Positions 3,643 to 21,287 of a DNA stretch of 22,018 nt are shown here, in pieces. The notes beneath the pieces are model-generated. The model had not been told where the DNA came from. It was given only the letters and a program-made list of their open reading frames with translations, and made no database searches. The stretch comes from a virus: positions 1 through 22,018 of the IMG/VR virus record IMGVR_UViG_3300028384_000368; one strand, given 5' to 3'. The first letter of the stretch is position 1, and the number at the start of each line of letters is the position of its first letter. A program made the position numbers and the translations under genes.

Positions 3643-4634
3643 TTGACTACCGCGAAAACCGTAAGGAAGCGTTTGTTGATTGGTTCGGTAAGTCTCTAGA
3701 AATAGAAGACTGCGACTCTGCATTATTCATGACGAACTACTTCTTTGATCGGTTCGAATACAACACAGAGCAAAAACTTTGGTTGTCATGGATATATGGG
3801 ACAACGTACTACTGGCCAACTTCGTATGTGGTCTGGAACGAATTCCCTGATATGGAACTGGTTGGTGTAGACCGACTCACCGAGTGGAACAACGAGAACT
3901 ATAAGCGTCTCCGGTATCAGACTGACACTAAATGGAATAAGGGTCATCTTCCTTCGCAGTTTATCTCATACAAAGAGTTTGTCGGAGAACGCACGCAACG
4001 AGAGGCACTGACCGAGAACTTTGTGGGTGATCCTATAAAAGATTTCTACTCTCTTTGGGACACAGTAAATTCTTGGCATAAGTTCGGTCGATACTCTTCA
4101 TGGTTCTATATCCAGACGCTGAAACAATGCTGTGACATTGACGTCGACGTAGACAGTTTGTGGTTACATGACTACAGTGGTTCTCGTTCTCACCGGAATG
4201 GGCTATGTTATGCAGTCGGTAAGGAAGAGTGGATTGATACGAAACTAGACCAAACTCAGGTCGACTTCCTAGAGTCCGAAGGGCGAGAGTTACTTGCAGA
4301 AGTGAAACAACAATTCCCTAGAGCAAAGGGAAACGCAGACTATTTTGCTATGGAAACCGCGTTGTGTTCCTTCAAGAAGTTATTCCGGAAACGAGATGGT
4401 AGATATCTTGGATACTACCTTGACAGACAGGCAGAAGAAATCAAGAAAGTCGAAAAGGACAATTGGTGTGGTATTGACTGGCAACCAATGTGGGACGCTA
4501 GGCAAGAAAAAATACCAGTAGAGTACTTGACAAACTCGATTGATAAGAGTAGAATGGAGTTATTCTTGGATACTGGAGATTTCGATCCCCAGAATCAATC
4601 TATAGGTTTAGAGGCATTTTATGGAATTAATTGA
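3639..4634 (+). CDS. putative DNA-base hypermodification transferase (331 aa)
   Basis: I recognise this only by resemblance to proteins found beside hydroxymethyluracil DNA kinases in T4-like phages, described as alpha-glutamyl/putrescinyl thymine pyrophosphorylase-like (aGPT-PPlase). Those replace the pyrophosphate on an activated base with an amino acid or amine. Notable motifs are WLSWIYGTTYYWPTSY (48-63), YQTDTKW (93-99), FGRYSSWFYIQTL (149-161) and SRSHRNGLCYAVGKE (182-196). The protein is soluble, rich in Trp and Tyr, and helical. It starts at TTG 3639, inside the previous stop, with GGAA (3627-3630) eight bases upstream; no in-frame ATG exists nearby. The kinase lies two genes downstream. 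Substrate and catalytic residues are not established here. Confidence 0.6.
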   Translation: MIDYRENRKEAFVDWFGKSLEIEDCDSALFMTNYFFDRFEYNTEQKLWLSWIYGTTYYWPTSYVVWNEFPDMELVGVDRLTEWNNENYKRLRYQTDTKWNKGHLPSQFISYKEFVGERTQREALTENFVGDPIKDFYSLWDTVNSWHKFGRYSSWFYIQTLKQCCDIDVDVDSLWLHDYSGSRSHRNGLCYAVGKEEWIDTKLDQTQVDFLESEGRELLAEVKQQFPRAKGNADYFAMETALCSFKKLFRKRDGRYLGYYLDRQAEEIKKVEKDNWCGIDWQPMWDARQEKIPVEYLTNSIDKSRMELFLDTGDFDPQNQSIGLEAFYGIN

Positions 4635-12307: not shown

Positions 12308-13726
12308 ATGAAGAAACTACTAACTGTAGCTGTGTCTACTGCACTTCTAAGTGCGTGTTCTGGTGGAGGTTCTGACACCCCACCGCCCGTCGTGGCAGAT
12401 CCTGTCACATCCACGCCCGTAACGACACCCGTCGACCCCGCAGTCGAGGCACGTGACAATCTACTCACGTTACTTGACTCTACGTCACCGACAGGTACTT
12501 ACGAGGCATACATCCTACCCGCAAGTGATGACTTCGACAACATCCCGCAGGATCCCAGCAATGAGATCACCGCAGAGAAAGTCGCACTAGGCAAGTTGAT
12601 TTATCACGAAACTGGTATCACTGAAGGTGATATCGGACCTAGTGAGAGCACGTTCTCATGTGCGTCATGCCACAATGCACAGAACGGATTCAAGTCTGGT
12701 ATCCGTCAGGGTATCGGTGAAGGCGGTATCGGTTTCGATCACCGCATGGTGATGGAGGGTATCAATCCCGAAGACATCGATGTGCAACCTGTTGCATCAC
12801 CCACTGTACTCAACACGGCATTCCAAGAAGTGATGTTGTGGAATGGTCAGTTAGGTAATGTGATTGCGGGTAATGTCAATGTTGGTATTGATCCCGATCG
12901 TCACTTCACAGAAGGTACTCCGAAAGAAGCAAACCTACGCAACTTTGCTGGTCTAGAGACACAAGCAGTTGCGGGTCTAGGTGTGCATCGTCAGGGTGAC
13001 ACAGATGATTCTATCCTGCGCACTAACGAAACTTATCGTGAGATGTTTGAATCTGCGTACGGTGTCGCAGAACCCGACGATATGTTAGAAGCGACTGCAC
13101 TGGCGATCGCCGCATACGAACGCACGATTCTTGCAAACCAAGCACCTTTCCAAGCATACTTGAAAGGCGACGAAACTGCGATGACTGAATCTGAAGTCGC
13201 TGGTGCAGAAGTGTTCTTTGGTAAGGGTAACTGTTATGCGTGTCATAACGGACCTGCGTTGTCATCTCCCGTTGGTGCGATGGCAGACGAAGTGTTCATG
13301 ACTGTCGGGTTCCATGATCTTGACATCTGGGAAGACACCATCGGTGAAGTTAATGAATCGACAAAGTTAGGTCGTGGTGGTTTCACAGGAGATGACCTTG
13401 ATCAATTTAAGTTCAAAGTTCCTCCGCTTTATAATCTTATAGATACAGAAGTATTTGGACACGGCGCTTCGTTTACATCCGTAGAAGAAGTGGTTCGATA
13501 TAAGGTGACTGCAATTCCGCAACACCCACAAGTAGAGATCAGTGATCTTGATTATAGGTTTACGCCAGTGGACTTAACAGAAGAAGAAATCGCTAATTTG
13601 ATCGAATTCCTTGAGAAGAGTTTGCACGATTCTGACTTGATGCGGTATGTGCCTGAGTCTCTACCAAGTGGTAACTGCCCTATCAATAATGACGAAGAAT
13701 CCCGTCAAGAGTTGGGTTGCGACTAA
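12308..13726 (+). CDS. di-haem cytochrome c peroxidase lipoprotein (472 aa)
   Basis: It would reduce periplasmic hydrogen peroxide to water with electrons from cytochrome c or a similar donor. The lipobox LLSAC (Cys17) and a Pro/Thr-rich linker (20-50) anchor it to the envelope. Two haem-c sites are present, CASCH (118-122) and CYACH (309-313), in the order and spacing of CcpA/MauG proteins. The family pattern SPTVLNTAFQEVMLWNG (164-180) and KVPPLYNL followed by H385 also fits. At 472 residues it is longer than typical CcpA (about 330) because of the linker and C-terminal extension. Haem attachment needs the host cytochrome c maturation system. It has its own promoter and ribosome site (GAGAGGA). 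This is an unusual phage gene. Confidence 0.92.
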   Translation: MKKLLTVAVSTALLSACSGGGSDTPPPVVADPVTSTPVTTPVDPAVEARDNLLTLLDSTSPTGTYEAYILPASDDFDNIPQDPSNEITAEKVALGKLIYHETGITEGDIGPSESTFSCASCHNAQNGFKSGIRQGIGEGGIGFDHRMVMEGINPEDIDVQPVASPTVLNTAFQEVMLWNGQLGNVIAGNVNVGIDPDRHFTEGTPKEANLRNFAGLETQAVAGLGVHRQGDTDDSILRTNETYREMFESAYGVAEPDDMLEATALAIAAYERTILANQAPFQAYLKGDETAMTESEVAGAEVFFGKGNCYACHNGPALSSPVGAMADEVFMTVGFHDLDIWEDTIGEVNESTKLGRGGFTGDDLDQFKFKVPPLYNLIDTEVFGHGASFTSVEEVVRYKVTAIPQHPQVEISDLDYRFTPVDLTEEEIANLIEFLEKSLHDSDLMRYVPESLPSGNCPINNDEESRQELGCD

Positions 13727-13728
13727 GG

Positions 13729-13736
13729 TATAAATA
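13729..13736 (+). promoter_or_regulatory. T4-type late promoter (TATAAATA) before tRNA-Ala
   Basis: An exact match 2 bases after the peroxidase stop codon and 9 bases before tRNA-Ala. Transcription would start at or next to the tRNA 5' end. Confidence 0.72.
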
Positions 13737-13745
13737 GAGGATATA

Positions 13746-13821
13746 GGGGCTATAGCTCAGTTGGGAGAGCGCTTGATTTGCATTCAAGAGGTCGTGGGTT
13801 CGACTCCCTCTAGCTCCACCA
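13746..13821 (+). tRNA. tRNA-Ala (TGC)
   Basis: The acceptor GGGGCTA pairs with TAGCTCC. The anticodon arm CTTGA-TTTGCAT-TCAAG gives anticodon TGC, and the T-arm GTGGG-TTCGACT-CCCTC is present. The discriminator is A and CCA is encoded. It sits directly after a late promoter and directly before a structured non-coding segment. Confidence 0.95.
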
Positions 13822-13993
13822 GTTTCCCCGAAGGGTGGTGGTCTGACACAAGAGTGAATTTTGCGCAGTGCGCACTGATATGATCTGCAGATCTCTCAAA
13901 ACGTGCATGTGAAAATGCCAGCAGAGATGTATCAAGTTTCACCGGATCAAAAAGTGTCCAGTAGGCTCCCACCCTTTCGGGGATCTTTTTTTT
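13822..13993 (+). ncRNA. candidate structured RNA ending in a terminator
   Basis: No credible gene lies in this ~170-base stretch, yet it folds into nested helices by eye. CCCCGAAGGGTGG (13826-13838) pairs with CCACCCTTTCGGGG (13969-13982, one bulge). Inside are CTGACAC/GTGTCCAG (13843-13849 with 13954-13961) and GTGAA/TTCAC (13854-13858 with 13938-13942). Further in are hairpin TGCGC-AGT-GCGCA (13862-13874), GATA/TATC (13877-13880 with 13930-13933), ATCTCT/AGAGAT (13891-13896 with 13923-13928) and GCAT/ATGC (13905-13908 with 13915-13918). The closing helix is followed by ATC and eight Ts (13986-13993), as in an intrinsic terminator. It would be co-transcribed with tRNA-Ala from the late promoter. 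Function is unknown; no known RNA family is recognised. Confidence 0.55.
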
Positions 13994-14016
13994 ATTATTG
14001 ACAAGTGAGTAATATT

Positions 14017-14160
14017 ATGTTAGACTATCTACTGTATTTTTTCGCGGCGGTTGGTGTATTGACTTCAGTTTCTTGGATTGTCCTGTACTGGATAATTATG
14101 GATGAATTTAAGAGTCTGGAAGACATCAATCCCGTAATTGACTTAGATGATTTTAAATAA
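14017..14160 (+). CDS. small membrane protein (47 aa)
   Basis: One N-terminal membrane helix (LYFFAAVGVLTSVSWIVLYWII, about 6-27) is followed by an acidic cytoplasmic tail (MDEFKSLEDINPVIDLDDFK). Its TAA overlaps the ATG of the nuclease gene (TAATG), and a GTGAG lies before its ATG. No family is recognised. Confidence 0.62.
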   Translation: MLDYLLYFFAAVGVLTSVSWIVLYWIIMDEFKSLEDINPVIDLDDFK

Positions 14161-19559: not shown

Positions 19560-21287
19560 ATGGCTATCAAATTTTACGGCGGACATCAATTAAATTCTAA
19601 GGCAAAGGTATACGGGTCTCGACAAGACTTCGAAGTTATCGAAGTAGATGAAAACGGAGATCCGATAACTGAGCCATCATATATGCCTGAGAACACTAAC
19701 AATGGTTCTACCAATTGGAATACTATAGGCAGTAATCTTTCGGACACAAGAAGCGCAACTGAATTAACATGGAATATTGATAATTCAATTGCTCCACTGA
19801 CCGCATATGGCACGGATGGTTGGATGTTCCAGAAAGTGTCCGAACCATCTATTCAACTTGAATCTTCATATGTTGTATCACTAAAAGTTTTGAATGCTAC
19901 CAGTGATTTAACTGTACGTGTTGTGAAGGGCAATACTGAATACGGATTCACACCTTCAATGGTGGATTCACTAGCAGAACAAACTATTCCTGCTGGAGAT
20001 TATACAAACTCTCCTCAGTCGGTATCGATGGTAGTTGACATTGGAGCAACGCTCGGTACTTGGAACAATACTCTGATGATCCAGTTTGCTTCTGCGGCTG
20101 GTTACGGCACATTCTCAATTCAAGATGTTCTATTGACTGATGGAGCTCAGGTAGCACCAGCATCTTACTACAAGACGTTGGCGACACAGTATGTTCCGCC
20201 ACCACCGATGACGGTAGGTTGGTCCAATGCTGGATTATCGGAATCTGAAAGGGTTGCTCCTGCATCCAACGGAATGCAATTATACCGACATGATCAACCC
20301 TATACAAACGCACACTCTAATAGAACACTACACAACCTGCCTGAATATCTGGAAGGATTACCGTTCTCTGTTGAATCCGCTTCACCTAGTCCTGAAAATG
20401 GTATACAGGGAACAACTAATGCCTTTGAAGAATATACTTTTAATACAAGTGGGACGTTATACCTGATTCTTCGTGCTGATTGGGGTGGGTACATCCCTTC
20501 TACCCTTGAGTTACAATTAAGTGATAACAATATTGGCAGTACAGGTGTATCAGATCCATCAGCGTGGACTTTTGTAGAAGATAACGTTGGTTATATGGGT
20601 GGCGGTGGAGACTATGGAACACTCGTCTTTTCCAAATCTGTCGAATCTGGAACACACAGTTTAAATAACTTATATCACTATGCATTTAAGGCAGATCCAG
20701 CACCAGAATTTGCTCCGGCACCAACTGCTTTCCAATTATGGAGATTATATGCTAGTGAATCTCCAAGTTTTGCGTGGAATGGGGGTTATCTTTGGGATAT
20801 TCAAGGCGCTTCAGGGATTCGTTTGGGCGACAATACTGAATTGGCATCTTCTGAAACAACTGGAGGTCTTATGTCTGCAACATATGGTCAAATACCAGTT
20901 GCTGGAGAATACGGTATATACACTTCAAATGCCAGTAATCCATTTACAGAGACAACTTATAATGGTGGTTGGGATGCTGGTCCTGGCAATATGTTTAATG
21001 GTGAAAGAACATCTTGGTCATCTCAAGTAGGACACTGGATTTTATGGTATTTGCATCAACCAATTGAACTTACCGCAATGGAAGGCGGTGAAGTAAATAT
21101 GAGAACATATGTCGGTAACCGACCTGATAGATGTCCACGAGAAACATTATTGCAGTATTACACTGGAGATTTAAACAGTACTTATGATGCATCAAAGTGG
21201 GTAACCTTTTCGACCTTGAAATCAAATCAATATGACGGCAATCCGACATGGACAAACATAACACAAGGCAGTATCAAAACGGTATAG
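19560..21287 (+). CDS. large beta-rich virion adhesin candidate (575 aa)
   Basis: Composition is rich in Ser, Thr, Gly, Asn and Tyr and poor in Lys, unlike its basic neighbours. The sequence suggests several beta-sandwich modules. One, around 45-220, looks like a carbohydrate-binding jelly-roll (STNWNTIGSNLSDTRSATEL ... FSIQDVLLTDGAQV). A second, around 225-385, contains SGTLYLILRADW, and a third, around 395-575, resembles a discoidin-like fold (AFQLWRLYASE, GIRLGDNTELASSE). There is no signal peptide, so it is probably a tail-fibre or capsid-decoration protein that binds the host surface. The assignment is structural intuition, not a family match. The gene is more AT-rich than its flanks, suggesting exchange. 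Confidence 0.6.
   Translation: MAIKFYGGHQLNSKAKVYGSRQDFEVIEVDENGDPITEPSYMPENTNNGSTNWNTIGSNLSDTRSATELTWNIDNSIAPLTAYGTDGWMFQKVSEPSIQLESSYVVSLKVLNATSDLTVRVVKGNTEYGFTPSMVDSLAEQTIPAGDYTNSPQSVSMVVDIGATLGTWNNTLMIQFASAAGYGTFSIQDVLLTDGAQVAPASYYKTLATQYVPPPPMTVGWSNAGLSESERVAPASNGMQLYRHDQPYTNAHSNRTLHNLPEYLEGLPFSVESASPSPENGIQGTTNAFEEYTFNTSGTLYLILRADWGGYIPSTLELQLSDNNIGSTGVSDPSAWTFVEDNVGYMGGGGDYGTLVFSKSVESGTHSLNNLYHYAFKADPAPEFAPAPTAFQLWRLYASESPSFAWNGGYLWDIQGASGIRLGDNTELASSETTGGLMSATYGQIPVAGEYGIYTSNASNPFTETTYNGGWDAGPGNMFNGERTSWSSQVGHWILWYLHQPIELTAMEGGEVNMRTYVGNRPDRCPRETLLQYYTGDLNSTYDASKWVTFSTLKSNQYDGNPTWTNITQGSIKTV

Follow-up and report, generated by a model that had tools for sequence, protein, structure and literature searches.

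Introduction

Stable RNAs encoded beside phage tRNA genes, among them T4 RNA C and RNA D, GOLLD and ROOL, have no agreed function. RNA C and RNA D, the species 1 and 2 stable RNAs of T4, are 139 and 119 nt long and lie behind tRNA-Arg within the tRNA array, RNA D beginning only 1 nt behind that tRNA; we know of no function for either. GOLLD and ROOL are large structured RNAs of phages and prophages that are often found near tRNA islands and have no known function, and the level of GOLLD rises during lysis (PMC12286853).

The RNA described here was found in a 22-kb IMG/VR contig from a T4-like phage (22,018 nt in all, hereafter the window), where it directly follows a tRNA-Ala gene. Like RNA C and RNA D, it would be a small, stable RNA of a T4-like phage, and like RNA D it closely follows a tRNA, starting 0–14 nt 3' of the CCA of tRNA-Ala(TGC) in all members inspected. 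When RNA C and RNA D were compared without filters with our broader covariance model (R2, below), the best score was 10 bits and lay outside rnaC and rnaD, with at most about 2 bits inside them; by this model no homology to the tRNA-Ala-linked RNA is detectable. GOLLD and ROOL resemble it as structured phage RNAs positioned by tRNA genes, but many GOLLD RNAs exceed 800 nt, ROOL is also large and both form multimeric cages. No Rfam match links them to the present RNA: on the window, tRNA alone passed the gathering cut-off of Rfam 15 (GOLLD, ROOL, tmRNA and 6S included), and permissive Rfam scans of four diverse members returned nothing credible within the RNA. An intrinsic terminator of a phage tRNA operon likewise has a GC-rich stem followed by a U tract, but here the stem encloses more than 100 nt that covary and are in part invariant. 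No description of the tRNA-Ala-linked RNA was found among open-licence full-text papers, a weak negative given that most subscription papers fall outside that scope. By these comparisons the RNA is a new family of a kind already known, the tRNA-linked phage RNA without assigned function. The family is compact and well delimited, with a strong comparative structure model and a near-invariant head of ~30 nt.

Results

An RNA element behind a late promoter and tRNA-Ala

The nearest deposited relative of the window phage is Phage C48C1 (OQ984149.1, filed under Kyanoviridae), whose copy of the tRNA and RNA is 97% identical to that of the window. The first-pass annotation had placed a candidate new structured RNA at 13822–13993, abutting tRNA-Ala without a spacer, with a late promoter on its 5' side and eight Ts at its 3' end, and the coordinates, the abutment, the promoter and the Ts are in the sequence as claimed (Table 1). 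The RNA starts directly at the CCA of tRNA-Ala(TGC), whose last base is 13821, and the eight Ts occupy 13986–13993. Transcription from the promoter is predicted to begin a few bases ahead of tRNA-Ala, and either TATAAATA or TATATATA stands 5' of tRNA-Ala in 26 of the 27 loci listed; the genes of C48C1 include one for a late sigma factor and one for a regulator of late promoters. The strand assignment relies on tRNA, late promoter and U tract, as counts of G-U and A-C cells in the model alignment (13 and 14) carry no strand signal.

Table 1. Features of the late promoter, tRNA-Ala and RNA unit in the window
Feature	Position	Strand	Basis
T4-type late promoter TATAAATA	13729..13736	+	7 in window vs 0.9 expected
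tRNA-Ala(TGC), CCA encoded, G3:U70	13746..13821	+	read from sequence
P1 5' strand (UCCCCGAA GGGUGG, bulged U, GGUCU)	13825..13844	+	covariation
P2 5' strand (GACAC; relatives GGUAC)	13845..13849	+	double changes AU<->GC, CG<->UA
Purine joining segment AAGA, conserved	13850..13853	+	alignments
P3 5' strand (GUGAA; partner 13938-13942)	13854..13858	+	covariation
P4 hairpin UGCGC-AGU-GCGCA	13862..13874	+	alignments
P5 5' strand (UGAUA, UGA, UCUGC)	13876..13888	+	two-sided changes, all 5 lower-P5 pairs
Near-invariant head: AGAUCUCUCAAAACGU, putative P6 hairpin GCAU-GUGAAA-AUGC, CA	13889..13920	+	near-invariant columns
P5 3' strand (GCAGA ... UAUCA)	13921..13934	+	covariation
P3 3' strand (UUCAC)	13938..13942	+	covariation
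P2 3' strand (GUGUC; relatives GUACC)	13954..13958	+	covariation
P1 3' strand (AGGCU, C, CCACCC, bulged U, UUCGGGGA)	13963..13983	+	covariation
UC + U8 tract, presumed transcript end	13984..13993	+	sequence; L015/L056 identity ends just beyond

The family occurs in a single set of related phages

Querying IMG/VR with the downstream exonuclease and the upstream MauG-like protein, and then with the conserved RNA motif, identified relatives in about 49 contigs, in addition to the copy in C48C1. The relatives reduce to 25 distinct sequences, which represent one set of related phages known mostly from metagenomic contigs, with C48C1 as the one deposited genome. The order of late promoter, tRNA-Ala and RNA is constant in the members inspected. 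Overall RNA identity falls below 60% between distant members. A sequence search of 50,697 phage records found most of the element in C48C1 only. When 84,980 genomes of bacteria and archaea were scanned for the motif, two matches came up, neither of them with a tRNA-Ala or the flanking architecture, and we read both as chance. A looser motif scan added further matches (L158–L162) that were likewise set aside as chance.

Relatives of the same exonuclease that have no tRNA-Ala in that place gave no match to the covariance models; three long records of this type carry 1–3 tRNAs, as against 7–12 in the carriers. A second copy of the RNA was not found in C48C1 or in the other long records searched (E <= 0.001). 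On contig L055, a 5'-truncated second copy (the 3' half, 3794–3900, within L055:3532–3990) adjoins the intact one and stands behind a duplicated promoter, exonuclease start and short terminator.

Covariation defines a conserved fold

Two covariance models were built, R1 from six close relatives and R2 by rebuilding on 26 sequences. R1 recovered the tested carriers other than L014 and L081, which represent the most distant types, and recovered L011 weakly (E 0.05), while R2 also recovered L014 (2e-6) and L081 (5e-4), all of these E-values being rough. Because MAFFT alone misaligns P1 and P5 in distant members, we relied on the covariance-model alignment together with a table of helix strands compiled by hand. 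A covariation check in related phages, such as the first-pass annotation had proposed, brought out compensatory changes across the 25 distinct relatives, with two-sided changes at 26 of 42 pairs in P1, P2, P3 and P5 of the R2 alignment. Pairing holds in 96.2% of the cells of this alignment, compared with 79.1% when shuffled and 32–51% when slid, and the covariation score is 0.447 compared with 0.167 when shuffled (none of 500 shuffles was as high) and at most 0.074 when slid. The R2 alignment is itself fitted to the model, for which reason the hand table was made as an independent second test; there, in every varying helix, native strands pair at 93–100% and strands swapped between variants at 30–84%, with the caveat that pairs picked by hand favour the native values. 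Taken together, the comparative data are decisive for a conserved RNA fold, and its retention through many compensatory changes makes it very probable that the structured RNA behind tRNA-Ala is a working RNA, made late in infection.

The element has an MFE of -57.9 kcal/mol (z = -3.3), with 1 of 200 dinucleotide shuffles folding as well, which taken alone is modest evidence for structure; among 12 relatives folded singly, z ranges from -5.3 to -8.3 in 11 and is -2.7 in L010. The window's own MFE structure partly misplaces P2 and P3 relative to the comparative fold, which pairs GACAC (13845–13849) with GUGUC (13954–13958) and GUGAA (13854–13858) with UUCAC (13938–13942).

In the consensus fold read from the alignments, a long closing stem (P1) is followed by P2 and P3, beyond which lie P4, a hairpin that is optional, and the long P5, which carries the head. 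A closing stem had been predicted at 13 bp; the stem is indeed there, but it measures 14 bp plus a 5-bp inner part (13825–13838 and 13840–13844 with 13963–13967, 13969–13974 and 13976–13983). P4 was not found in the L026/L029, L011/L014 and L081 types, and some relatives have an extra hairpin in the region of the P5 3' strand. The two 12-base palindromes noticed earlier at 13866–13877 and 13882–13893 are present in the window, but the dimerization or protein-binding role suggested for them finds no backing in the relatives: of the 25 distinct versions, just 2 contain CAGTGCGCACTG and 5 contain GATCTGCAGATC. Judged by this poor conservation, the palindromes are incidental.

The head, about 30 nt with the consensus AUCUCUCA-n-CGYGCAUG-n-AUGCC, is near-invariant while the rest of the RNA diverges. 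Its GCAU and AUGC can pair as P6 around a loop of 6–13 nt; neither P6 nor the head ever varies, so neither yields a covariation signal, and P6 is plausible but unproven. The purine run between P2 and P3 reads AAGA, GAGA or AGAGA among the members, and the AAGA run is complementary to the UCUC of the head over 3–5 bases (the automatic segment choice missed some rows), a possible, as yet unproven, tertiary contact. A possible likeness of the head to ribosomal RNA was set aside, as chance alone would be expected to give one 8-base match.

Both neighbours of the RNA are exchangeable

Natural replacements separate the RNA from the genes on either side. In L015 and L056 the tRNA-Ala and RNA are identical, the sequences part just past GGGGAUUCUUAU at the RNA 3' end, and the downstream exonucleases belong to separate groups of the exonuclease tree; because the two contigs share the RNA but differ in flank and exonuclease group, the module is not tied to the exonuclease. 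On the other side, L079 and L081 have 100% identical RNAs with tRNA-Ala genes only 71% identical, L144 and L015 have 95% identical RNAs with 70% identical tRNA-Ala genes, and L144 and L055 combine identical tRNAs with RNAs 79% identical. Folding predictions keep the tRNA and the RNA apart, with 0 to 0.5 expected cross pairs. The unit thus appears to be late promoter, tRNA-Ala and RNA, with both the tRNA body and the downstream gene exchangeable. Retention of the RNA through swaps of both points to action in trans and away from a leader or mere terminator.

An unusual tRNA-Ala(TGC) body (GGGGGAAUAGUAUAACGGG..., with some 70% identity to the usual body and G3:U70 kept) is found at L055:3258–3331, at L079:123–196 and in L144, in each case taking the normal tRNA-Ala slot with the RNA behind it almost unchanged. 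The tRNA-Ala of L003 is missing 5 T-arm bases and receives no ARAGORN call, either through genuine decay or because of a faulty assembly, and is followed by an RNA that looks intact.

Discussion

On balance, we consider it probable that the locus is a gene for a small, stable, structured phage RNA that acts in trans late in infection through a head recognised by a partner. The unit would be transcribed late as one short transcript with tRNA-Ala, from which the RNA would be separated, perhaps by tRNA 3' processing, and the long closing stem with its U tract would fix the 3' end, giving a stable product of about 150–190 nt. A rod of P1-P2-P3-P5, with P4 optional, would then present the near-invariant head. 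That the rod varies, with covariation, and the tip stays constant is in keeping with an RNA offering its tip to a partner in trans. In such an RNA, UCUCUCAAAAC would be accessible unless bound, and P1, P2, P3, P5 and P6 would be protected.

The alternative to which we give the most serious hearing, while thinking it unlikely, is an antisense small RNA. Its loop AUCUCUCAA would base-pair with UUGAGAGA at ribosome-binding sites on mRNAs made early by the phage, or else with mRNAs of the host, for late shut-off. The complement of UUGAGAGA is matched exactly by UCUCUCAA, which is near-invariant, 5 of the 6 plus-strand copies of UUGAGAGA in C48C1 lie at most 40 bases 5' of annotated starts, and the RNA terminates in a stem and U8, as Hfq-binding RNAs end in a stem and U tract. 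UUGAGAGA merely resembles a purine-rich ribosome-binding site, however, and when genes were called uniformly on the two strands, covering phage mRNAs only, it precedes genes in 9 of 43 copies in five carrier phages, compared with 4 of 26 in three non-carrier relatives and 0 of 10 in G001. With no clear excess over non-carriers in these genomes, the comparison lends no support to pairing with phage mRNAs. A somewhat less probable proposal holds that the element only terminates, stabilizes or insulates the late tRNA-Ala transcript, its interior being filler. P1 and the U tract do stand at the end of the unit, and the downstream genes have their own promoter sequences of sigma70-like type (TTGACA) at their start, but P2, P3 and P5 covary, conservation is highest in the apical head, at the greatest distance from the transcript end, well over 100 nt is an unusual loop size for an intrinsic terminator, and many relatives have a poor U tract (GGGGAUUCUUAU).

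A role as a partner of tRNA-Ala, which the RNA would bind, protect or mimic, for instance as a decoy for an anticodon nuclease, is improbable to much the same degree or slightly more. The RNA always follows tRNA-Ala(TGC), even where the tRNA body has been replaced with the Ala anticodon kept (L055, L079, L144), and the invariant GCAU resembles the anticodon loop UUUGCAU; the similarity is only 4–5 bases long, however, no pairing between tRNA and RNA is predicted, and L003 keeps the RNA behind its defective tRNA-Ala (if that defect is not an assembly error). A cis-acting leader, riboswitch or attenuator, of the downstream exonuclease gene is very unlikely: the RNA lies 5' of the PD-(D/E)XK exonuclease gene in loci that were fetched through that gene, but identical RNAs precede two exonuclease groups (L015, L056), so that the association is not constant, a small ORF (14005–14160) intervenes between the RNA and the exonuclease gene in the window, promoter-like sequence lies 3' of the RNA and no alternative antiterminator pairing was noticed. 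We give almost no credence to a protein-coding or DNA-level element. A 31-codon CDS is annotated at 59600–59695 of OQ984149 (C48C1), but indels or early stops break its frame in relatives, such as AUGCCUUGA in L004 and AUGCCAAGCAGUUAG in L015, and no open frame is common to the members, in agreement with the first-pass annotation of the stretch as non-coding; the poor conservation of the palindromes speaks against a site in DNA. The CDS is probably spurious, an example of how phage annotation misses such RNA genes.

Returning to a late RNA that acts in trans, since pairing with phage mRNAs is not supported we favour, by elimination and analogy, a protein or the ribosome as the most likely partner to recognise the head, whether it comes from the phage or from the host. 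A doubtful extension is that the RNA founds a new class of late phage RNA acting on translation or alanine tRNA. The arrangement of promoter, tRNA-Ala and RNA would then have been kept through tRNA replacement because the head works with alanine tRNA or the ribosome, and the RNA might be, for example, a decoy against a tRNA-directed host defence. Together with the structure model and the near-invariant head, the natural swaps that separate the RNA from both of its neighbours make point mutants and pull-downs directly designable.

Other features of the window and of C48C1

Just 5' of the late tRNA and RNA unit, at 12308–13726, the window encodes a di-haem cytochrome c peroxidase (CCP_MauG, Pfam E 8e-23), which together with a peroxiredoxin at 449–1045 makes a pair of redox genes unusual for a phage. 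A 575-aa ORF at 19560–21287 lacks a Pfam match, and tblastn against 50,697 phage records likewise gave none, although its neighbours are conserved. In C48C1 (OQ984149.1), two genes at 106634 and 109354 have almost the same promoter and leader (tataat..., with aaagttgagTTGAGAGAGA following immediately 5' of the start codon), a repeated leader of early type.
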